From: Erythrobacter sp. Alg231-14
Lineage (GTDB): Bacteria > Pseudomonadota > Alphaproteobacteria > Sphingomonadales > Sphingomonadaceae
Length of the DNA: 64,000 nt
Assembly: GCF_900149685.1 (NCBI RefSeq)
Contig: NZ_LT702999.1
Coordinates: forward strand, 1,798,001-1,862,000
Direction: 5' to 3'
A program made the position numbers and the translations under genes. Position 1 is the stretch's first letter. Each line of letters begins with the position of its first letter. The notes under the pieces are model-generated. The model had not been told where the DNA came from. It searched no databases and worked only from the letters and a program-made list of their open reading frames with translations. Below are positions 26,930 through 39,788 of the stretch, in pieces.

Positions 26930-27463
26930 GTGAGAATTTTGGGTGCGATCTTGGCCGGTGGAAAGGCAAGGCGCTTTGGCAGCGATAAGGCGCAGGCGCT
27001 CTATCGTGGAGAGCGCCTTATCGACTGCGTTGCCCGCTCATTGCGCGGCCAGACCAATGCGGTTGTCTTGTGCGGCCGTGTAGATCCCGATTTTTCCTGC
27101 CTCGAAGATCGCCCAAACGGCGATTTGGGGCCTTTGGGCGGCCTTTGTGCGGCGTTGAACCACGCACATCATCATGGCTACACACACGTCCTATCGACTG
27201 GAGTCGACGCCCCCGATTTGCCGGTTGATCTTTGCCAAACACTGACCGGCGCGGACACAGTGAACCGGGCCGCCATCGTCGAAAATCAACCCGTGATCGG
27301 ATTGTGGCCCGCGCCGCTTTGCAAAGAGTTGGACGCGTTTCTCGCCCAAGGTGGGCGTGCCCTGTATGGTTTTGCTGAACAGGTGAACGCGCGGCGGATC
27401 GCGTTCGACCCGCCGCTGATGAATGTGAACCGCCCCGCCGATCTGGGCGATGATCAACCCTAA
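26930..27463 (+). CDS. mobA: Molybdenum cofactor guanylyltransferase MobA
   Basis: 177 residues with a GTG start. It has the nucleotide-binding signature LAGGKARRFGSDKA, the catalytic-region GDLGPLGGLCAAL, STGVDAPDLP, and the C-terminal NVNRPADL typical of MobA. It joins GMP to molybdopterin to make the MGD cofactor of the DMSO-reductase superfamily. The MGD-type enzyme at 28577 is about 1.1 kb away, so this copy probably serves it. The gene overlaps the end of the convergent MDR gene by 4 bases. Confidence 0.88.
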   Translation: MRILGAILAGGKARRFGSDKAQALYRGERLIDCVARSLRGQTNAVVLCGRVDPDFSCLEDRPNGDLGPLGGLCAALNHAHHHGYTHVLSTGVDAPDLPVDLCQTLTGADTVNRAAIVENQPVIGLWPAPLCKELDAFLAQGGRALYGFAEQVNARRIAFDPPLMNVNRPADLGDDQP

Positions 27464-28461
27464 AGCTTGAGCATCTGTTTGCCGCGGTTTTTGCCCACGA
27501 ACAAACGTTGCAAAGTGTCGGGCGCGTTTTCAAAGCCGTGCTGAATATCCTCTTGGTATTTCAGGCTGCCATCATCAACGAACCCTTCGAGCCGCTTTCG
27601 AATAGCCGCAAACTCACTGGCCCAATCAAGGACAATGAACCCGGCCATGCTTGCCCGGCGAAAGATCAGGTTGAAATAATTGCCAGGCCCCGTGGGCAGG
27701 CCGCCCGATTCATAACGCGATATGCCACCGCAAATGACTACGCGCGCATTGGTGGCGATGTTGGCCAGCATATCGTCCAAGATCGTGCCGCCGACATTGT
27801 CGAAAATCACATCGACGCCGCGAGGGCAATGTTCTCTGATTTGCGCTTTCACGTCGCCCGCTTTGTAATCAATTGCGGCGTCGTATCCCGCTTCTTTCAC
27901 GAGCCATTCGCATTTTTCCTTGCCGCCCGCGATGCCAACAGCGCGGCACCCAGCAATTTTGGCCAATTGACCAACCACGCTACCGGTTGCGCCCGCCGCA
28001 CCTGACACCAAAACGGTGTCACCGGCGACAGGTTTGCCGACTTTGAACAATCCGCAGTACGCGGTCAGCCCCGTAGTCCCCAAAACCGAAAGAACCGCGG
28101 TCGGCGACAAAGCGGTCTCCACTTTGGTCAATCCTTCACCATCATGGACAAGATATTCGGTCCAACCGGTGGTGCCGAACACAAAGTCGCCAACGGCGTA
28201 TTTTCCGGCATTGCTTTCAACCACTTCGCAAATACCGCTGCCGCGCATCACGTCGCCGATCGCCATGGGCGCCACATAGTCGGCGATGTTTTCCATCCAG
28301 CCCTTTTGCGCCGGGTCAAACCCTAAGAAACGCGTCGCTAACACCATCTCTCCCGGGCCAGGATCGGGCAATTGAGTATCGACCAGTTTGAAATCGTCGC
28401 TGGCGATGCCGCGTCCGCGTGGGTGACCGTTCAAGAGCCATTGGCGAGAAGTCGTGGGCAT
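27460..28461 (-). CDS. Zinc-free MDR NADP-dependent oxidoreductase (CurA/PTGR type)
   Basis: 333 residues. The start has AAGGAGA seven bases upstream. The signatures are GAAGATGSVVGQLAKIAGC for NADPH and DVIFDNVGGTILDDML, diagnostic of the prostaglandin-reductase branch. It would reduce an enone or enal double bond. It is divergent from the molybdoenzyme and is one of three paralogues in the cluster. Confidence 0.9.
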   Translation of the reverse strand: MPTTSRQWLLNGHPRGRGIASDDFKLVDTQLPDPGPGEMVLATRFLGFDPAQKGWMENIADYVAPMAIGDVMRGSGICEVVESNAGKYAVGDFVFGTTGWTEYLVHDGEGLTKVETALSPTAVLSVLGTTGLTAYCGLFKVGKPVAGDTVLVSGAAGATGSVVGQLAKIAGCRAVGIAGGKEKCEWLVKEAGYDAAIDYKAGDVKAQIREHCPRGVDVIFDNVGGTILDDMLANIATNARVVICGGISRYESGGLPTGPGNYFNLIFRRASMAGFIVLDWASEFAAIRKRLEGFVDDGSLKYQEDIQHGFENAPDTLQRLFVGKNRGKQMLKL

Positions 28462-28576: not shown

Positions 28577-30715
28577 ATGGGTGTTGAGACTCGCAAAACG
28601 TTCTGTCGGTTCTGTCATGCAAATTGTGCGATGGAAGTGGACGTAGAGAACGGCAAAGTTATCGAAGTGCGCGGCGACAAAGATGATCCGGCATTTGGCG
28701 GATACACCTGTCTAAAGGGCCGCGAATTGCCCGATTCGCACAATGCAGAGCACCGCCTGCATCACAGCCTAATCCGCAACGATGCGGGCGAATTCCAAGA
28801 AACCGCAATGCCCCAAGCGTTGGAGCATGTGGCCGACGAAATTCGCCGAGTGATCGCGGAACATGGGCCCAATTCGGTCGCGGTCTTTATGGGTTCAGGC
28901 GGCTATCAAAACAGCGCAGCAATGGCCGCATCGCTTAGCTTTGCTCAAGCGATAGGGACGCGAAATTTCTACACTTCTGTCACGTTGGACCAGCCGGCGA
29001 AGGTTTTCACGACCGCACGCTATGGCAAATGGATGGGCGGTACGAACACATTTTCGGAAAGCGACGTCGCTCTCTTGGTGGGCAACAACCCGATCGTTTC
29101 GCATTATTCTCCCCCTGGCGGCGTCCCACCCTTTAGCCCGTCGCGACGCATCCGGGATGCCAAAGAACGCGGCATGAAAGTGATTGTCGCCGATCCACGC
29201 GAAAGCGACGTGGCGCGATTGGCCGATATCTATTTGCCGGTGAAGCCGGGCGAAGATCCGGCTTTGCTCGCCGGGATGCTGCATGTGATCATCAAAGAAG
29301 AATTGTACGACCGCAATTTCGTCGCCGCGCATGTCGATGGCTTTGAAGAATTGACCGCTGCGGTCGAACCGTTCGCACCAGATGCCGCGGCGGCGCGGGC
29401 CGGTGTTGACGCGGACCAATTGATAGCGGCCGCCCGAATCTTCGCGGGCGGATCGAAGGGGTGCGCGGTCACAGGAACCGGTCCAGAAATGGCCGGGAAC
29501 GGGACGTTGACCGAGTATCTTGTGACCTGTCTCAACACCGTGTGCGCGCGGTTCAAACAAGAAGGTGAGAAAGCCGCGATCCCCGGTATCTTTACCAATA
29601 TCAACGGTCCACGGCGTGCCCAAGTTGGCCCCAATGTGCCCATGTTTGGCGCCGAAGGAATGGAGAAATCTCGGTTCCGCGGCTTAGGCCAATTGGGCGT
29701 GGAAATGCCCTGCAACGTTTTAGCTGATGAGATCTTGACGCCCGGCGACGGCCAAGTCCGTGTTCTCATTTCGGTTGGCGGCAACCCCGTCGTTGGCTTC
29801 CCCGATCAGGTGAAGATGGTTCGGGCGCTCGACGATTTGGATATGTTTGTGCAAATCGATCCATGGATGAGCGCAAGCGCCAAACGCGCCGATGTGGTCT
29901 TGGCTCCGTCTCAATGTCTTGAACGCGAAGACATCTCCAACCTGTCGGAATGGTGGCACGAAGAACCCTATGCCCGTTATGTTGAAGCGGTTGCGACACC
30001 GCCGGGCGATGTCATCGACGAATATGAAATGTTTTGGACCTTGGCGCACAAATTGGGCGTTACGATGCAGCTTGCCGGTGGGCCGCTGCCGATGGATGAA
30101 AAGCCGTCAAAGGAAACGTTCCTCGATCTGATGACCGCCGGATGCATCGTACCCCCCAGCGAAGTTCGCAAGGACGCGGCCAAATTGGGTGGCAGCGCCG
30201 TGCTCTATCCCGACAGACACCCTGTTGTCGAAGCGGTCGAGGAAAGCGAGTTTAACCGGTTTGGATTGGGTGCGGGCGATATGCCAGCAGAATTGCTACG
30301 CTATGCCGACGATGCCCCAGCGCGGGCCGGTTTTGAGTTCAAGTTGATCAGCCGGCGTTCCAAAACGCGGTTCAATTCAATCGGGCACCCGCTCAAGAAA
30401 CTGCGCGAAAAAACGACAACCAACCCCGCCTATATTCACCCGGATGACATCGCTCAATTGGGTCTTGAGGAAGACGGTATTGTCGCGATCACCAGCCCGC
30501 ACGCAACAATCCATGGCGTTGTGAAATCAAGCAACAAGGTGCGCCGAGGCCTGGTTTCCATGGCCCATGCCTATGGCGATGTGGACGCCACAAAAGACGA
30601 TGTGCGCGAACGCGGCTCATCGACAAACCGACTGACCAGTGAAGTGGTCGATTTCGATCCCATCACGGGCCAAAGCCTACAAAGCGCGATCCCTGTGAAA
30701 CTGGTCCCTGCTTAA
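28577..30715 (+). CDS. Molybdopterin oxidoreductase, DMSO-reductase superfamily, with [4Fe-4S]
   Basis: 712 residues from ATG at 28577 behind GAGGAGA. The N-terminal cluster ligands are C10, C13, C17 and C45 (CRFCHANC...CLKG). The bis-MGD domains follow (NNPIVSH, VADPRESDVARLADIYLPV, SVGGNPVVGFPD), with a C-terminal MopB_CT barrel from about residue 595 (RRSKTRFNSIGHP). At the place where formate dehydrogenases carry Cys or Sec (near 140) I see TLDQPAKV, leaving D138 as the apparent metal ligand. No Tat signal is present, so the enzyme is cytoplasmic. No electron-transfer subunit is adjacent. Possible reactions are anaerobic-type hydroxylation, hydration or ring-carbon redox. The substrate is unknown. 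Confidence 0.88.
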   Translation: MGVETRKTFCRFCHANCAMEVDVENGKVIEVRGDKDDPAFGGYTCLKGRELPDSHNAEHRLHHSLIRNDAGEFQETAMPQALEHVADEIRRVIAEHGPNSVAVFMGSGGYQNSAAMAASLSFAQAIGTRNFYTSVTLDQPAKVFTTARYGKWMGGTNTFSESDVALLVGNNPIVSHYSPPGGVPPFSPSRRIRDAKERGMKVIVADPRESDVARLADIYLPVKPGEDPALLAGMLHVIIKEELYDRNFVAAHVDGFEELTAAVEPFAPDAAAARAGVDADQLIAAARIFAGGSKGCAVTGTGPEMAGNGTLTEYLVTCLNTVCARFKQEGEKAAIPGIFTNINGPRRAQVGPNVPMFGAEGMEKSRFRGLGQLGVEMPCNVLADEILTPGDGQVRVLISVGGNPVVGFPDQVKMVRALDDLDMFVQIDPWMSASAKRADVVLAPSQCLEREDISNLSEWWHEEPYARYVEAVATPPGDVIDEYEMFWTLAHKLGVTMQLAGGPLPMDEKPSKETFLDLMTAGCIVPPSEVRKDAAKLGGSAVLYPDRHPVVEAVEESEFNRFGLGAGDMPAELLRYADDAPARAGFEFKLISRRSKTRFNSIGHPLKKLREKTTTNPAYIHPDDIAQLGLEEDGIVAITSPHATIHGVVKSSNKVRRGLVSMAHAYGDVDATKDDVRERGSSTNRLTSEVVDFDPITGQSLQSAIPVKLVPA

Positions 30716-30767: not shown

Positions 30768-31778
30768 ATGCCAGAAAATCGCCGCTTCCTTTTGCAACGC
30801 CGCCCGGACGGTGAGCCGGTTCGAGAAGATTTTGAGTTGATAACGGAAGCCACCCCTCAATTGGCCGAGGGAGAATTTCTGATCCGCAATCATTACGCGT
30901 CGCTTGATCCGGCGATGCGCGGTTGGATGGATGCCAGCGGAAACTACATGCCCCCGGTTCCGCTGGGCGCATCCATGCGGGCCAGCACCATTGGCGTCGT
31001 CGAAGAAAGTCGGGCGGAAGGGTTTGAGCCCGGCCAATGGGTCATGGGGCTCAACGCGCTTGAAGATTATTCGATCAGCCAAATCGGTGGGTTCACCCAA
31101 CCGATTGATGCATCATTGGTGCCGAGCGTGACCAATTACCTTTCGATTTTTGGTGCGGTGGGAATGACGGCCTATTTCGGTTTCCTCGAAGTGTGCGAAC
31201 CAAAAGAGGGCGACACGGTTCTCGTCTCTGGCGCTGCGGGTGCGGTTGGGTCGTTGGTGGGTCAGTTGGCCAAATTGCATGGCTGCCGTGCGGTCGGCAT
31301 CGCCGGTGGACCGGAAAAATGCGCTCGCCTGACGGAGAAATACGGGTTTGATGCAGCGATCGATTATCGCGGCAAAGACGAAGCATCCTTGACCGCTGCC
31401 ATCGCAGAGGCCGCGCCAGACGGCGTCGATGTAATCTTCGAAAATGTTGGCGGCGCGATCCTGGATGCAGGGTTGATGAATTTGAATCTCTATGCGCGCA
31501 TCGGCCTTTGCGGTTTGATCAGCGAATACAACACTGACCCGCGCGGCGCGCGCAACATTTGGCAACTAATCGTGAAGCGCGCCTCCATCCGGGGCTTGTT
31601 GGTTGCGGATTATGTCGAACGCTTTGGCGAAGGTGCGGTGAAAATGGGCGAGTGGGCCGCAGCCGGCAAACTCACCATTGATGAACATATCGATGAAGGG
31701 CTCGAGAACGCCTTTGACAGTTTCATGCGCCTGTTCGCCGGGACCAATGATGGCAAGATGATCCTCAAAATCGCATGA
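30768..31778 (+). CDS. Zinc-free MDR NADP-dependent oxidoreductase (CurA/PTGR type)
   Basis: 336 residues with AAAGGA before the ATG. NADPH binding is seen in SGAAGAVGSLVGQLAKLHG, and the branch signature is DVIFENVGGAILDAGLM. It should reduce an activated C=C bond. It lies 52 bases after the molybdoenzyme, so may share its transcript, and overlaps the ThuA gene by 4 bases (ATGA). Confidence 0.9.
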   Translation: MPENRRFLLQRRPDGEPVREDFELITEATPQLAEGEFLIRNHYASLDPAMRGWMDASGNYMPPVPLGASMRASTIGVVEESRAEGFEPGQWVMGLNALEDYSISQIGGFTQPIDASLVPSVTNYLSIFGAVGMTAYFGFLEVCEPKEGDTVLVSGAAGAVGSLVGQLAKLHGCRAVGIAGGPEKCARLTEKYGFDAAIDYRGKDEASLTAAIAEAAPDGVDVIFENVGGAILDAGLMNLNLYARIGLCGLISEYNTDPRGARNIWQLIVKRASIRGLLVADYVERFGEGAVKMGEWAAAGKLTIDEHIDEGLENAFDSFMRLFAGTNDGKMILKIA

Positions 31779-32566
31779 CATCCGCGGCGCAGAAACGCTC
31801 GCTTCTCGTTTTGTCGTGGGGCCATCCATATGAAGAAGAGCCCTTTGACGAGCTCATCCACAATGTGGGCGACTGGGACGTCACCCATTTGCTCCATCCC
31901 GAAGCCGAAGAGGCCGTAGCAAACGGCGCGGCGCGGGAAGCGGACGCGATGCTTTTCTACGATATGGGTGGTTACACTTTTGCAGATGATTGGGTCACAT
32001 CACGGCCGCCATCGCCGGAATTTCGCCGCGCCATTGTGGAGCGGTTTGAAAGCGGCCGCGGCGCGGTTGCGATGCATCATGCGTTGGCCGGTTGGGCAGA
32101 TTGGCCCGAATGGCATGAAATGTTGGGCGGACGGTTCCTTTACACGCCGGGCGAAGTGCGTGGAGAGAAAGTGCTCGATTCCGGTTATCGCCACGACGTC
32201 GATTACACGGCCAAGGTGGTTGCAGACCACCCTGTTACGGCGGGGCTTCCATCGGAATTTCCCGTCTGCGACGAGCTGTATCTGGCAGAAATCTTCGAAG
32301 CGGATGTCGAGCCTTTGGTGCGCTCTGACTATGCCTTCACCCGCGACGATTTTTATTCCGCTGCATTAGGCATTTCGGGGACGCTGTATTCCAATGAAGG
32401 GTGGGACCACCCCCCTGCCAGCAACCTGGTCGCGTGGCACAAACAAGTGGGGAATGCACCCCTAGTCTATTTACAGTTTGGCGATGCGCCGCAAACCTAC
32501 ACAAACCCGCATGTGCGCCAAATGCTTGCACAGGCGCTCACATTCACCGCCGGAGAGAAATCATGA
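31775..32566 (+). CDS. ThuA-domain (trehalose-utilisation-like) protein
   Basis: 263 residues of the glutamine-amidotransferase-like ThuA fold: LLVLSWGHPYEEEPFDELI, GAVAMHHALAGW, then DHPVTAGLPSEFPVCDELYL, which is the family's most conserved region. The biochemical role of ThuA proteins is poorly known; many lie beside sugar or keto-sugar genes. It is translationally coupled on both sides (4-base overlaps). A second ThuA gene lies at 37809. Confidence 0.85.
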   Translation: MTSAAQKRSLLVLSWGHPYEEEPFDELIHNVGDWDVTHLLHPEAEEAVANGAAREADAMLFYDMGGYTFADDWVTSRPPSPEFRRAIVERFESGRGAVAMHHALAGWADWPEWHEMLGGRFLYTPGEVRGEKVLDSGYRHDVDYTAKVVADHPVTAGLPSEFPVCDELYLAEIFEADVEPLVRSDYAFTRDDFYSAALGISGTLYSNEGWDHPPASNLVAWHKQVGNAPLVYLQFGDAPQTYTNPHVRQMLAQALTFTAGEKS

Positions 32567-32943
32567 CGCCCATCGAAACCATCACCGCCTTCATCGCTGC
32601 GTGGGACGAATACAATCTTGAGAAGATTTATTCGTTTATGGCCGAGGATGTTGAATGGACCGATGTGCCGTTGTCGACCGTCACCGGGGTCCCAGCCGTC
32701 CGCGCCAAAATGGACGCCTTTCCCGGTGTCGAAGCGTGCGGATTTGACATGCATCACATCGCCGCAAACGGGAACGTCGTCCTCACCGAACGCACAGATT
32801 GGTTTGAAATGAAGGGCAAACGCCGGACCATTCGCGTGATGGGCACGTTTGAACTGAATGATGATGGCAAGATCGCCAAATGGCGTGATTATTTCGACAG
32901 CGCAGAATTTATGCGCGAATTTGGTGATTTGGTCGGTGGATAG
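32563..32943 (+). CDS. Limonene-1,2-epoxide hydrolase-like protein
   Basis: 126 residues from ATG at 32563, overlapping the ThuA stop. It aligns by eye with limonene-1,2-epoxide hydrolase: TERTD gives the catalytic R77-x-D79 (R99 and D101 in the Rhodococcus enzyme) and KWRDYFD gives D109 (D132). The two residues that help hold water, Tyr53 and Asn55, appear as Trp32 and Asp34. It could open an epoxide formed by the nearby P450. It is otherwise a SnoaL-fold protein of the expected size. Confidence 0.75.
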   Translation: MTPIETITAFIAAWDEYNLEKIYSFMAEDVEWTDVPLSTVTGVPAVRAKMDAFPGVEACGFDMHHIAANGNVVLTERTDWFEMKGKRRTIRVMGTFELNDDGKIAKWRDYFDSAEFMREFGDLVGG

Positions 32944-34322: not shown

Positions 34323-35411
34323 ATGAACTTCGACCTAACCGAAGAACAAGAAATGTTCCGGGCGTCCGTTGAACGTTTCTCCGCTCCCATCGATGTCGAG
34401 GCGCGCCGCAAATTGCGCTTGTCGCCAACCGGCTATGACCGTGATCGATGGGCATCGCTCGCGGAATTGGGTCTCATCGCGCTTGCGGCGCCGGAAAGTG
34501 CGGGCGGCATGGGCGGATCAACTCTGGATCTCGCATTGATCGCCGAAGCCATTGGCAAGGCAAATTCGCCCGATCCGTGGCTCGAACATGGTGTTTTGCC
34601 CACGCAACTTCTGATTGCAGGCGGTGTTGATGGCGCGGTGGAGAATGTTTTGGCCGGCGAACACATCGTCGGATTGGCATGGGCGGAACGCGCACAACGA
34701 TACGCGTTGGCGGCCGTGGGTATGAAGGCGGAGCCATCGGGAGAGGGTTTCGCTCTTACCGGGGAAAAGACCTTTGTGATGGGCGCTTTGTTGGCCGACA
34801 CCTTCGTCGTGTCTGCCAATTTGGATGGCGAAACGGCGTATTTTCTGATCCCACGGGATGAGGATGGCGTTGAAATGCGTGCCTACCGTTTGACCGACGG
34901 AAGCATTGCAGGTGAACTGAAATTGACCCGCGCCACAGTCGGAGCCGCCGCAAAGCTCAACATAACATCCGCGCAATTCAACGATATTGTCGGCGAAACG
35001 CGATTGTTGGCTGCTGCAGAGATGTTGGGCCTGGGTCAAAGATTGCTCGATGACACGTTGATCTATGTGAAAGAACGCGAACAGTTCGGCGTTGCCATCG
35101 GGTCGTTTCAAGCCCTGCAACACCGTCTGGTCGAAGCTTATGCCCGGATCGAGCAATGCCGATCCATGCTGTATCGCGCCGCTTTGGCGGATCGCAGCGA
35201 TGCCCATGAGTGGCACCGCGCCACCGCTGGAGCAAAGGCCTTTATTGGCGAAAATGTAGACGCCGTCGCACGTGAGGCGGTCCAGATGCACGGCGGAATG
35301 GGCATCACCGACGAATTGGCCATCGGACATGCGATGAAGCGTGTGATGGTGCTCGCCAAACTGTTCGGTGACGCGGAAAGCGCGCTCGCCGAATACGCGA
35401 CAGCGGCCTGA
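34323..35411 (+). CDS. Acyl-CoA dehydrogenase, short subunit-type
   Basis: 362 residues, shorter than the usual 380-400. The N-terminal helical domain is MNFDLTEEQEMFRASV, and the C-terminal flavin region is REQFGVAIGSFQALQHRL with MHGGMGITDELAIGHAMKR. GGGGAGAGGGG precedes the ATG. Together with the 402-residue ACAD at 38580 it resembles the split (alpha2beta2) acyl-CoA dehydrogenases of steroid side-chain degradation, where each chain supplies part of the FAD sites. It is directly downstream of the P450. Confidence 0.88.
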   Translation: MNFDLTEEQEMFRASVERFSAPIDVEARRKLRLSPTGYDRDRWASLAELGLIALAAPESAGGMGGSTLDLALIAEAIGKANSPDPWLEHGVLPTQLLIAGGVDGAVENVLAGEHIVGLAWAERAQRYALAAVGMKAEPSGEGFALTGEKTFVMGALLADTFVVSANLDGETAYFLIPRDEDGVEMRAYRLTDGSIAGELKLTRATVGAAAKLNITSAQFNDIVGETRLLAAAEMLGLGQRLLDDTLIYVKEREQFGVAIGSFQALQHRLVEAYARIEQCRSMLYRAALADRSDAHEWHRATAGAKAFIGENVDAVAREAVQMHGGMGITDELAIGHAMKRVMVLAKLFGDAESALAEYATAA

Positions 35412-35437
35412 AAAATGCGGCTTTAAGGAGGCCACCT

Positions 35438-35863
35438 ATGGGACAAAAAATCGACCCTGAGCTGTGGAGCAATGATGCACAGCCGCATTTGATGGGAGGG
35501 AAACTTCCATCAGGCGAAGTGGTGTTTCCGATGCCGCAAGGCGACGCTGCACGCGATGTGGAACCGTACAAATTATCGCGCCAAGGGACACTGTGGTCGT
35601 GGACGACACAAGGGTTTCTGCCCAAGGAACCGTATGAAGGCCCAGGATCCGGCCCGAACGAAGGCCCCCCTGACTTTCAGCCCTTCTTGCTGGGTTATGT
35701 CGAATTGCCCGGCGAAGTCATTGTCGAAAGTCGAATTGTGGGCGCGACGCTCGATGATTTGAAATTGAACATGCCGATGGAGTTTTGCGTGGTCCCATTC
35801 AATGCGACGCACGACACGTTTGCGTACCGTCCGATGGCCACCGAAAAGGAGCAAGCCGCATGA
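35438..35863 (+). CDS. DUF35-type OB-fold protein lacking the zinc ribbon cysteines
   Basis: 141 residues. The OB domain shows GTLWSWTTQGF and FLLGYVELPGEVIVESRIVG, matching the C-terminal DUF35 half. At the N-terminal rubredoxin-like region, where CxxC pairs normally bind zinc, it reads KLPSGEVVFPMPQGD with no cysteine, and the whole protein has a single Cys. DUF35 proteins act as partners of thiolase-like enzymes, including the Ltp2 steroid aldolase. It overlaps the thiolase-like gene by 4 bases, supporting a complex. Confidence 0.82.
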   Translation: MGQKIDPELWSNDAQPHLMGGKLPSGEVVFPMPQGDAARDVEPYKLSRQGTLWSWTTQGFLPKEPYEGPGSGPNEGPPDFQPFLLGYVELPGEVIVESRIVGATLDDLKLNMPMEFCVVPFNATHDTFAYRPMATEKEQAA

Positions 35864-37032
35864 CCGAGAATGTCTATATTGTCGGTGCGGGCATTCACCC
35901 GTTTGGCCGAACAGAGAACCGCACGGGCCGCGAACAAGGTGTTTTTGCCGTCCGTCAGGCTTTGGCGGACGCAGGACTGGATTGGACCGATATGGAATGC
36001 GCCTATGGCGGTTCCGCAGCGGCCGGAAACGCCGATATCATGGTGAACGAATTGGGCCTGACGTCCCTACCCTTCACCAATGTTGCCAATGGTTGCGCCA
36101 CAGGCGGCAGCGCGTTGGTAGCCGCGCAACAGGCGATCGCCAGCGGTATGTATGATCTGGCGCTGGCGGTTGGCTTCGACAAACATCCGCGCGGCGCGTT
36201 CAACGCCAAACCGTCCGATTACGGCTTACCCGAATGGTACGGTCAAACCGGCATGATGCTCACCACGCAGTTTTTCGCGCTCAAAATCCAACGCTACATG
36301 CAACTTCACGGGATTAGCCGAGAATCGTTGGGTCGGGTCGCGGCAAAGGCTTTTCGCAATGGAACGGTGACGCCGCATGCATGGCGTCGCAGCGAGATTG
36401 ATCTGGAAACGATCATGAATGCGCCGATGATCAATGATCCACTCACCAAATATATGTTCTGCGCACCCGCCGAAGGCGGCGTCGCACTGATTCTTGCCAG
36501 TGAGAAAAAAGCGCGCGAAATGGGTGCGCTCGACAACAATGGCTCGGTGAAAATCGCCAATATTGCCGTTCGGACACGGCCACCTGATAGTTTCGAAGTG
36601 TTCCAAGCCGGGGTCAGCGTTAAGGAAGGCGGCAAACCGACCGTGCTGGCGTCAAAGGCAGCGTTCGAAGGCGCAGGGATTGGCCCCGACGATATCGAAG
36701 TCGCTCAATTGCAGGACACAGAATCCGGTGCAGAGATCATGCACATGGCCGAAAACGGGTTTTGCAAAGACGGCGAACAGGAAGAATGGTTGGCCAATGG
36801 TTGGTCCGAACGCGGCGGGAAACTTCCCATCAACACCGATGGCGGATGCCTCGCTTGCGGTGAGCCAGTCGGCGCATCGGGTTTGAGACAAGTCTATGAA
36901 AATGTCGAACAACTGCGCCTGCGCGCGGGTGAACGGCAGGTCGCGGGCCGCGATGGGAACGGTCCCAAAACCGGATACAGCCATGTCTATGGCGCTCCGG
37001 GCCTTTCCGCAGTTGCGATCTTGGAGCGTTAA
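35860..37032 (+). CDS. Thiolase-like protein (lipid-transfer/Ltp2-type)
   Basis: 390 residues from ATG at 35860. The nucleophile cysteine region is present (C79 in VANGCATGGS). The usual thiolase GHP histidine is Glu in ACGEPVGASG (E335), and the C-terminal Cys-x-Gly is replaced by HVYGAPG (Y377). Loss of these two residues argues against ordinary thiolysis. Ltp2-type aldolases that work with DUF35 proteins rely on tyrosines instead. A retro-aldol cleavage of a beta-hydroxyacyl-CoA is therefore plausible but unproven. The start overlaps the DUF35 stop (ATGA), and the SDR gene begins one base after the stop. Confidence 0.86.
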   Translation: MTENVYIVGAGIHPFGRTENRTGREQGVFAVRQALADAGLDWTDMECAYGGSAAAGNADIMVNELGLTSLPFTNVANGCATGGSALVAAQQAIASGMYDLALAVGFDKHPRGAFNAKPSDYGLPEWYGQTGMMLTTQFFALKIQRYMQLHGISRESLGRVAAKAFRNGTVTPHAWRRSEIDLETIMNAPMINDPLTKYMFCAPAEGGVALILASEKKAREMGALDNNGSVKIANIAVRTRPPDSFEVFQAGVSVKEGGKPTVLASKAAFEGAGIGPDDIEVAQLQDTESGAEIMHMAENGFCKDGEQEEWLANGWSERGGKLPINTDGGCLACGEPVGASGLRQVYENVEQLRLRAGERQVAGRDGNGPKTGYSHVYGAPGLSAVAILER

Positions 37033-37806
37033 ATGACCGGTAAAATGCAAGGCAAAGTCGCAATCGTCACAGGCGGCGCCGAAGGAATTGGCGCCACAGT
37101 AGGCCGGATGATCGTTGCCGAAGGCGGGCAGGTTATGCTGTGCGATGTTCAAATCGACAAAGCACGCGCGCTGGCCGAAACTTTGGGCAGCAATGCCGAT
37201 GCGTTCGAATTGGATGTGCGCGAACTCGATCAATGGCACGCAGCGGTAAAGGCAACGCAAGAGCGTTTCGGTAAGCTGACGGTGTTGTGCAACATCGCCG
37301 GCATTTCGGAACCTGGGAATGTAGTTGATGTGGACCTCGACAGTTGGCGCCGCACGATCGACATCAATTTGGAAGGGCCGTTTTACGGATGCCGCGCAGC
37401 GATCCCGGCGATGGAAGCCAGCGGCGAGCCGGGTGCGATCGTCAATATCGGTTCGATGATTGCAATACGCGCAGCGGCCTTTGTTGCCGCGTACAGCGCG
37501 TCAAAAGCGGGTCTGCTTGGTCTGACCCGATCCATCGCCCTCGATTGCGCGGAACGCGGTGTGCCAATTCGCGCAAATATGGTGCACCCCGGTGCGATCC
37601 GCACACCAATGTACGATCGATACAAATATTCCGGTGCCGACACGCCAGAGAATATCGAAACAAACTTTGCCGCAACCCATCCGATGAACCGGATCGGGGA
37701 ACCCGAAGAAGTGGCGAAAGCGGTTGTCTTCCTTGCCAGCGATGAAGCCAGCTTTACCACCGGTTGCGATTTTACCGTCGATGGCGGCGGGTCGATTAGG
37801 AGTTAA
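37033..37806 (+). CDS. SDR-family oxidoreductase
   Basis: 257 residues. TGGAEGIGA is the cofactor motif, Asp in LCDVQID suggests NAD, NIAG replaces NNAG, the catalytic tetrad has serine in NIGSM, and the Tyr/Lys pair is YSASK. In this operon it could be the hydroxyacyl dehydrogenase of a side-chain cycle. ATG immediately follows the thiolase-like stop, and ThuA follows after 2 bases. Confidence 0.9.
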   Translation: MTGKMQGKVAIVTGGAEGIGATVGRMIVAEGGQVMLCDVQIDKARALAETLGSNADAFELDVRELDQWHAAVKATQERFGKLTVLCNIAGISEPGNVVDVDLDSWRRTIDINLEGPFYGCRAAIPAMEASGEPGAIVNIGSMIAIRAAAFVAAYSASKAGLLGLTRSIALDCAERGVPIRANMVHPGAIRTPMYDRYKYSGADTPENIETNFAATHPMNRIGEPEEVAKAVVFLASDEASFTTGCDFTVDGGGSIRS

Positions 37807-37808
37807 TT

Positions 37809-38576
37809 ATGGGCGAACAACCAGCAACCCGCATCGACGCGCATTTCATCGCAGCGGGCAAATATCACGATATCGATTACCCGCGTCTCGAAGTGCTCAA
37901 ACTGCTCGCGGAACACCCGCATATCCGCACAACTGTGGCCGCGGATTATTCGGGTCTCGAACGGTTGGATCAATGCCGGTTCTTGATCACTTATACGTGT
38001 GATTTGATGCCGACGCCCGAACAGACAAAGCAATTGCGGGCGTGGGTCGAAGGGGGCGGCAAATGGTTGGCGCTGCACGGGACCAATTCGATCCTGGTCT
38101 TCACAGAAGAAGGTTTGGTCGACACACCCGAAGATCGACCCGATGTCTTTGACATGCTGGGCACGCAGTTCAAAGCGCATCCGCCCATCGGCCAATTCGA
38201 AGTCGAAGTGGTGAACAAAGATCACGAGCTTACCCGGGGGATCGACAATTTCGAAGTGGTCGACGAGCTGTATCTGTCAAAAACCACCGCCGAAATCGAC
38301 ACGCTGATGCAGACCACTTTCGAAGGTGAAGCAACCGGCTTTGTCGAAGACAAGTGGGACAAAACCGCTGTGCCTATCCTTTACACTAGGGATCTTGGTC
38401 GCGGTAGGATCGTTTACAACACATTGGGCCATTGCCGCGGCCATTATGACCTGCCCGGAATGCAGGATTTCTACCCGCACAAGGAAATGTGCGCGTGGAA
38501 CTACGACGTGTATTACGACATGCTCAGACGGTCGATCGATTGGGCAAAAAGAGACGAAGCTACAGGGGGAGACTAA
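37809..38576 (+). CDS. ThuA-domain protein
   Basis: 255 residues of the ThuA/GATase-like fold. WLALHGTNS is the strand-turn at the pseudo-active site, and KDHELTRGIDNFEVVDELYL is the conserved block shared with the paralogue at 31775. It lies between an SDR and the second ACAD with spacings of 2-3 bases, so it must be made along with them. Its function is unknown. A role in handling CoA or keto intermediates is only suggested by its place. Confidence 0.83.
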   Translation: MGEQPATRIDAHFIAAGKYHDIDYPRLEVLKLLAEHPHIRTTVAADYSGLERLDQCRFLITYTCDLMPTPEQTKQLRAWVEGGGKWLALHGTNSILVFTEEGLVDTPEDRPDVFDMLGTQFKAHPPIGQFEVEVVNKDHELTRGIDNFEVVDELYLSKTTAEIDTLMQTTFEGEATGFVEDKWDKTAVPILYTRDLGRGRIVYNTLGHCRGHYDLPGMQDFYPHKEMCAWNYDVYYDMLRRSIDWAKRDEATGGD

Positions 38577-38579
38577 AAT

Positions 38580-39788
38580 ATGGACATGACGTTTTCGCCC
38601 GACGACATCGCCTTTCGCGAAGAGGTGAGAGAGTTCCTCGCCACGAAATTGCCAGATCGGTTGAGAGACGGCGCACGACGGACGCCCGGCGTATTTGTTG
38701 AACCCGATATCGGCATGGAATGGCACCGCATCCTGAATGATAAAGGTTGGGTTGCACCGCATTGGCCCAAAGAAGACGGCGGGACCGGTTGGACCCCAAC
38801 CCAGAAATTCCTGTTCGAAAAAGAATGCGCCTTGGCGGGTGCCCCGGCTTTAGCGATCCTTGGCTTGCGCCTTGTTGGCCCCGTAATTTGCGCCTTTGGC
38901 ACGCCGGAGCAAAAGGCGCGGTTTCTGCCCAAAATTCTATCGGGTGAAGAATATTGGTGTCAGGGATATTCAGAGCCCGGCAGCGGATCGGATCTGGCCT
39001 CTCTCAAAACTACCGCCCGGTTGGAAGACGGGGAATACACGGTCAACGGTTCTAAGATTTGGACGACACACGCCCATCATGCCGATTGGATTTTCGCGTT
39101 GGTGCGCACCGATGCAACGGTCAAAAAACAGGCTGGCATCACATTCTTATTGTTGCCGATGGATCAACCAGGGATCGAGGTCACACCGATCCATTCCATG
39201 TCGGGCGACCACGAAGTCAACGCCGTCTTTTTTAGCGACGCGAAAACATCCGTCGATTGCCGGATTGGCGAAGAGGGGCAAGGTTGGGCAATTGCGAAAT
39301 TCCTGCTTGAAAATGAACGCGGTGGATCGTGTTACGCCCCGCGCCTTTTGCAGAGCATCGACAAGTTAGAAGCCTTAGCCAAAGATCAGCCATCCGGCGT
39401 GAACGGCGCGATGGCCCATGATGCAAGATTCCGCGACAGATTGGCGCGGGCGCGATTAGAAGCCGAAGCGTTGGAATTCACCGAGTTACGGATTCTGGCC
39501 GAACTGGCCAAGGGACGCTCTCCCGGCCCTCAAACATCATTGGTCAAACTTCTTGGATCCAATATCGGGCAAGAAATCGACACGCTGCGCCTCGAACTGC
39601 TGGGCCATGATGCGTTGCAATTGCCGCTTGAGCGGCCGCTTTACGGCAATGAAGCACCCGAACCCGTGGGCAGCGAAACCGCGCAAACCGCGATGGGTCG
39701 ATATCTCAACAACCGAGCGTCAACGATCTTTGGTGGGTCCGACGAAGTGCAAAAGAACATTATTGCAAAGACCGTTCTGGGTCTTTGA
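38580..39788 (+). CDS. Acyl-CoA dehydrogenase, long subunit-type
   Basis: 402 residues with the complete ACAD pattern: YSEPGSGSDLASLKT (flavin and substrate contact), VNGSKIWTTHAHHADW, and C-terminal STIFGGSDEVQKNIIAKTVLG, typical of FadE-like chains of steroid-side-chain enzymes. It probably pairs with the shorter chain at 34323. GGGGGAG precedes the ATG by nine bases. It is part of the 33047-40712 operon. Confidence 0.92.
   Translation: MDMTFSPDDIAFREEVREFLATKLPDRLRDGARRTPGVFVEPDIGMEWHRILNDKGWVAPHWPKEDGGTGWTPTQKFLFEKECALAGAPALAILGLRLVGPVICAFGTPEQKARFLPKILSGEEYWCQGYSEPGSGSDLASLKTTARLEDGEYTVNGSKIWTTHAHHADWIFALVRTDATVKKQAGITFLLLPMDQPGIEVTPIHSMSGDHEVNAVFFSDAKTSVDCRIGEEGQGWAIAKFLLENERGGSCYAPRLLQSIDKLEALAKDQPSGVNGAMAHDARFRDRLARARLEAEALEFTELRILAELAKGRSPGPQTSLVKLLGSNIGQEIDTLRLELLGHDALQLPLERPLYGNEAPEPVGSETAQTAMGRYLNNRASTIFGGSDEVQKNIIAKTVLGL

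Follow-up and report, generated by a model that had tools for sequence, protein, structure and literature searches.

Aspartate as the metal ligand of a molybdoenzyme is found in the type-II enzymes, namely NarG, perchlorate reductase, ethylbenzene dehydrogenase and steroid C-25 dehydrogenase. According to PMC10100899 and PMC6016249, the type-II enzymes consist of several subunits including an FeS beta subunit, and EbdH and S25DH, both Asp enzymes, use water to hydroxylate hydrocarbons. The recent superfamily tree in PMC10100899 has one Asp clade, located around NarG, and unnamed basal lineages described as Cys-using; a description of the clade presented here was not found in the part of that work examined. 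Two other systems resemble our protein in architecture. The FdhF-type formate dehydrogenases (E. coli FDH-H and the HDCR FdhF) share its domain layout, length, [4Fe-4S] motif and the lysine Lys44 (K47 here), and acetylene hydratase (AHY, 2e7z) is likewise a single chain of similar length with one [4Fe-4S] cluster and the bis-MGD domain set. The molybdoenzyme described here has an Asp at the predicted ligand position and, in contrast to the multi-subunit type-II enzymes, is a lone chain of 712 aa. We lean towards a bis-MGD molybdenum enzyme that works in the cytoplasm as a single subunit and represents an Asp-ligated lineage of its own within MopB, with a confidence slightly above even that applies mainly to the structural and lineage claims.

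The gene lies at 28577..30715 on the plus strand of the window, the 64,000-nt stretch of DNA that was analysed, in an Erythrobacter-like host genome of 3.14 Mb. The product is a member of the MopB/DMSO-reductase superfamily by its three domains PF04879 (Molybdop_Fe4S4), PF00384 (Molybdopterin) and PF01568 (Molydop_binding), each scoring above the cut-off. The open reading frame of the preliminary description was confirmed. The ATG at 28577 is preceded 7 bases upstream by a Shine-Dalgarno-like GAGGAG. The frame is open further 5' to a GTG at 28454, and close relatives align from MG(V)... The translated N-terminus is MGVETRKTFCRFCHANC, and no signal peptide or other export signal is apparent from the sequence ahead of the first cluster cysteine. 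The [4Fe-4S] motif CRFCHANC with C10, C13 and C17 is encoded at 28604..28627 (+) and is invariant in the clade; the fourth cluster cysteine, C45, has its codon at 28709-28711 (+). As had been noted before, these cysteines are intact, and all four are present in 37/37 aligned clade members. The nearest genome loci, labelled 'uncultured Erythrobacter', are 91% identical. A sequencing artefact was rejected, since the same frame and the same motif occur in more than 70 related loci.

The relation to the formate dehydrogenases and to acetylene hydratase was analysed by sequence and by predicted structure. The best PDB sequence matches of the molybdoenzyme are FdhF-type formate dehydrogenases. These have a Sec or Cys followed by His141, whereas the molybdoenzyme has D138-Q139, and the column of their catalytic Arg333 is not conserved in its clade. 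With TIGR01591 the protein scored 218.6 bits against a cut-off of 666.25, and no fdhD for the FdhD sulfurtransferase was found in the host genome. Lacking the Sec/Cys-His pair, Arg333 and a genomic fdhD, and with TIGR01591 below its cut-off, the protein was rejected as a formate dehydrogenase. The cofactor-free AlphaFold2 model is confident (pLDDT 92.4, pTM 0.93). Foldseek with this model listed acetylene hydratase first (TMq 0.78), followed by NapA and formate dehydrogenases, with a TMq of about 0.76-0.78 across the three, and the Asp-type EbdA and PcrA first appeared at rank 36-37. Acetylene hydratase was also rejected: its ligand Cys141 corresponds to D138 and its Asp13 to His14 in the molybdoenzyme, and it belongs to a separate Cys clade. 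A second bis-MGD candidate of the same genome (L002, G000:C1:503876-505204) is acetylene-hydratase-like, reads Cys in the ligand column (GVALCAGNTAAVSR) and groups with the solved AHY in the tree.

The molybdoenzyme gene is located within a catabolic island, which spans roughly 4.6 to 50 kb of the window and contains P450s, Rieske-type oxygenase subunits, a KstD-like flavoprotein, a PimC/PimD-like acyl-CoA dehydrogenase pair, an OB-fold protein with a thiolase, SDRs and CoA ligases. It is flanked by two CurA-type reductases, the NADPH enone reductase MDR1 (27460..28461, minus strand) and MDR2 (30768..31778, plus strand), which reached 336 and 330 bits with NF058644, both below the cut-off, and each has a match in 75 of 80 related loci. 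Further downstream, all on the plus strand, are a ThuA-like protein (31775..32566, PF06283), a limonene-epoxide-hydrolase/SnoaL-like protein (32563..32943, PF07858), a cytochrome P450 (33011..34309, PF00067), a small-subunit PimD-like acyl-CoA dehydrogenase (34323..35411, TIGR03203 at 207 bits, below the cut-off), an OB-fold protein of the ChsH2 C-terminal type (35438..35863, PF01796), a thiolase or lipid-transfer-type protein (35785..37032, NF006102 at 231 bits, below the cut-off), a short-chain dehydrogenase (37033..37806), a second ThuA-like protein (37809..38576, PF06283) and a large-subunit PimC-like acyl-CoA dehydrogenase (38580..39788, TIGR03204 at 374 bits, below the cut-off). The acyl-CoA dehydrogenase pair, the OB-fold protein and the thiolase at 34323-39788 recall steroid side-chain degradation genes; none of these genes matched a diagnostic equivalog model. 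A ferredoxin motif was not found among the small open reading frames of the window.

The island core around the molybdoenzyme is common to Erythrobacteraceae and Sphingopyxis, in the latter without a mobA within 10 kb. Plasmid-borne relatives lie among P450, acyl-CoA, CoA-transferase or dehydratase genes. Such an enzyme inside an oxygenase cluster had been called unusual, but the subfamily occurs repeatedly beside P450, acyl-CoA-dehydrogenase, SDR and CoA-transferase genes, and in sphingomonads a place among P450, acyl-CoA and thiolase genes is typical of it. Close relatives with the motif TSVTLDQPAK are found across Erythrobacteraceae and Sphingopyxis. More distant paralogues (31-48% identity, typically with TSVTIDQPGK) occur in other alphaproteobacteria, where a genome may have as many as three. 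Many other proteobacteria, Deinococcus and Streptomyces have a second subfamily, of about 700 aa and with the motif SATSVDQLPH; in the other proteobacteria its genes are apparently solitary, and no diagnostic partner was seen when their neighbourhoods were inspected by eye. The same clade includes unnamed 'molybdopterin-dependent oxidoreductase' proteins, from sphingomonads, Massilia, Deinococcus and Streptomyces among others, which have the invariant D, mostly as DQ; many of them have no neighbouring mobA and some are solitary genes. At the sequence level the observation is well supported, and it reaches further than the preliminary description supposed. PDB sequence and profile searches found no entry within the Asp clade, no NCBIfam model reached its cut-off on the molybdoenzyme, and no characterised clade member was found in the open-access literature, to which this search was confined. 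In one genome (G151), two Asp-type molybdoenzymes are encoded at most 6 kb apart (L226, 5989-13833), adjoining frames that by eye are nitroreductase-like and flavin-oxidoreductase-like.

The supply of the cofactor was analysed with mobA, which encodes the MGD cofactor guanylyltransferase of 177 aa at 26930..27463 (+). It matches PF12804, and TIGR02665 with 100 bits against a cut-off of 151.85 that is likewise missed by every mobA of the genus. The gene is upstream of the molybdoenzyme, with one opposite-strand gene between them; the gap of 1113 bp from its 3' end at 27463 agrees with the 1.1 kb given before. In 50 of the 80 related loci, mobA, MDR1 on the opposite strand and the molybdoenzyme follow one another in this order, and the gaps measure 1.1-1.4 kb. 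In a genus sample of 37 genomes, the host included, where mobA was called at >70 bits, each of the 23 enzyme-bearing genomes had mobA, against 4 of the 14 that lack the enzyme (Fisher p = 2.9e-6, a value that ignores shared ancestry). These four all encode a different bis-MGD candidate. Eight near-complete genomes (G008, G009, G020, G021, G026, G027, G028 and G036) have no mobA and no bis-MGD enzyme, their single PF00384 protein being NuoG-sized; all eight have moaA, which is found in nearly all genomes of the sample. In 19 of the 23 enzyme-bearing genomes mobA adjoins the enzyme. Of the others, G031 has it elsewhere, G003 has it fused to fdhD beside another enzyme, and in G014 and G032 the contig ends too early to show it.

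Judging by this co-occurrence and the conserved gene order, the molybdoenzyme is genetically coupled to mobA and MGD synthesis. It may bind bis-MGD with Mo or W, to which the fold and the co-occurrence with mobA point indirectly. The preliminary description had gone further and suggested a dedicated MGD supply. This is too strong, because the gene at 26930..27463 is the only mobA-grade match in the host genome, and the Cys-type acetylene-hydratase-like enzyme at C1:503876 must depend on it as well. FdhD is absent from 21 of the 23 enzyme-bearing genomes, the host among them, which is weak evidence since a Cys-type bis-MGD enzyme also exists in this FdhD-less genome. Where a genome of the Erythrobacteraceae encodes no bis-MGD enzyme other than this one and NuoG, a clean knockout and mobA test is possible. 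The mobA gene diverges faster (about 49-67% identity to its relatives) than most neighbours in the same loci (mostly 75-95%). Apparent fdhD-mobA fusions were observed at G003:C1:1489921-1491246 and G011:C5:13474-14787 as single frames of 517 and 488 aa that match FdhD and MobA, and both adjoin a 775-aa MopB enzyme.

For the reaction, we propose that MobA would add GMP to form the bis-MGD of the molybdoenzyme and that the Mo would be held by the carboxylate of D138 in an oxo/hydroxo-type site that would need no sulfuration by FdhD. The site would then catalyse oxygen-atom transfer, most likely acting on an alicyclic or steroid-like intermediate of a CoA pathway by water-based hydroxylation or dehydrogenation, and the electrons would pass via K47 through the single cluster to a soluble carrier. 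Taken on its own, water-based hydroxylation or dehydrogenation is a tentative first choice that falls well below even confidence; it is preferred in view of the pathway in which the gene is set and of paralogues that are tied to different islands, and by analogy to EbdH and S25DH.

The enzyme might instead work in the reductive direction, as an Asp-ligated dehydroxylase or similar to an S- or N-oxide reductase, on an oxygenated intermediate provided by the neighbouring P450s or Rieske enzymes. Many oxyanion reductases are found among the Asp-ligated type-II enzymes, according to PMC10100899, and in a related locus on a plasmid the gene is followed directly downstream by an NADPH-dependent FMN reductase. 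NADPH-dependent reductases also stand on both sides of the molybdoenzyme gene, but these MDR enzymes are better read as enone reductases. Since the setting is one of aerobic catabolism and a dedicated electron-donor subunit is lacking, we regard the reductive direction as doubtful. Somewhat less probable still is a non-redox hydratase, isomerase or transhydroxylase, comparable to acetylene hydratase or pyrogallol transhydroxylase, which would need no electron partner. None of the contexts examined shows a second subunit, and this extends to the apparently isolated genes of other proteobacteria; acetylene hydratase is the best fold match of the enzyme. However, the ligand is Asp and not Cys, the position of the AHY Asp13 is His14, and the place of the solved AHY in the tree is among Cys-type relatives, not within the Asp clade. 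The conserved K47 also argues against a non-redox reaction, though this lysine is present in AHY too.

D138 had been suggested as the metal ligand in the preliminary description. The motif SVTLDQPAKV is present with the D138 codon at 28988..28990 (+), and neither Sec nor Cys occupies the metal position. In a MAFFT alignment with E. coli references, D138 falls on the column of Sec140 (U140) of FdhF and on the ligand columns of FdnG (Sec), NapA and YdeP; NarG is one column off, with an alignment ambiguity around YDWYCDLPP. In an alignment of PDB sequences with a profile of 32 clade members, D138 matches, with no local gap, the Cys or Sec ligands of 7qv7 (HDCR-FdhF), 9t1s (F420-FDH), 2e7z (acetylene hydratase) and 2vpw (polysulfide reductase). 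No other residue aligns at the metal. Asp occupies this column in 37/37 aligned clade sequences down to 23-30% identity, followed by Gln in 34/37, and the Fe-S/pterin lysine K47 is kept in 36/37. Chance does not explain the match, since even relatives of 23% identity keep this Asp without exception. From these alignments, the Mo is very probably held by D138. The site could also be open, as in the Ala-type arsenite oxidase, or D138 could be an acid/base residue. One diverged outgroup sequence with Glu in this column, L146, points in this direction, but the invariant Asp on the ligand column and the gap-free match to the four solved ligand sites make it improbable.

The kinship to the NarG-type enzymes was analysed with an unrooted IQ-TREE maximum-likelihood tree of 60 sequences and 693 columns, which has long branches. 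A search for type-II enzymes with TIGR03479 found none in 150 proteobacterial genomes, and therefore E. coli and plasmid records supplied the references of the NarG type. The Asp clade was monophyletic with an ultrafast bootstrap of 95, and of 100 when the divergent Acinetobacter sequence L146 was included. The NarG-type sequences joined DmsA/TorA (100) and then the acetylene-hydratase group (97). When the Asp clade and the NarG group were forced together, the tree was worse by a delta lnL of 88.6 (AU p = 6e-5). A second tree, to which the solved AHY and PsrA were added and from which the ligand neighbourhood was cut, gave the same separation and placed the solved AHY outside the Asp clade, in a group (support 100) with the Cys-type L002 and a Rhodococcus protein. 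The molybdoenzyme did not fall within a Cys-ligated family. A ligand as in respiratory nitrate reductase had been proposed, which holds for the residue itself, whereas a kinship is contradicted by the AU test. That the molybdoenzyme is merely a shortened member of the type-II Asp clade (NarG, PcrA, EbdA, S25DH), as the common ligand residue and the resemblance of its D-Q-P to the D-L-P-P of NarG might suggest, is very improbable in view of this test, the TIGR03479 score of 110.8 bits against a cut-off of 984.75 and the absence of a NarJ/TorD-type chaperone (PF02613) from the host genome.

Since the Asp and NarG lineages are separate, parsimony favours two origins of the Asp ligand. The unrooted trees, in which the type-II enzymes are represented by NarG-like and haloarchaeal sequences and EbdA, PcrA and S25DH are absent, favour an acquisition separate from that of the nitrate reductases. 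Asp, at a ligand position regarded as important in determining the chemistry, would then have been acquired at least two times. The separate lineage would make it possible to test which properties Asp confers by itself, and would bring molybdenum chemistry into aerobic oxygenase pathways. It is plausible, though a little short of even confidence, that the clade forms another class of Asp-ligated Mo-bisMGD enzymes, with an evolutionary origin independent of the first. Its members, cytoplasmic and with one subunit, would have radiated in aerobic bacteria as catabolic enzymes specific for their substrates and would perform water-based hydroxylation or deoxygenation beside P450 and Rieske oxygenases. 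The Acinetobacter homologue L146 (5001-6317), which reads SLAQEKTG with the Glu in the ligand column, branches beside the Asp clade; its record is a 'plasmid' of 3.66 Mb, probably a mislabelled chromosome.
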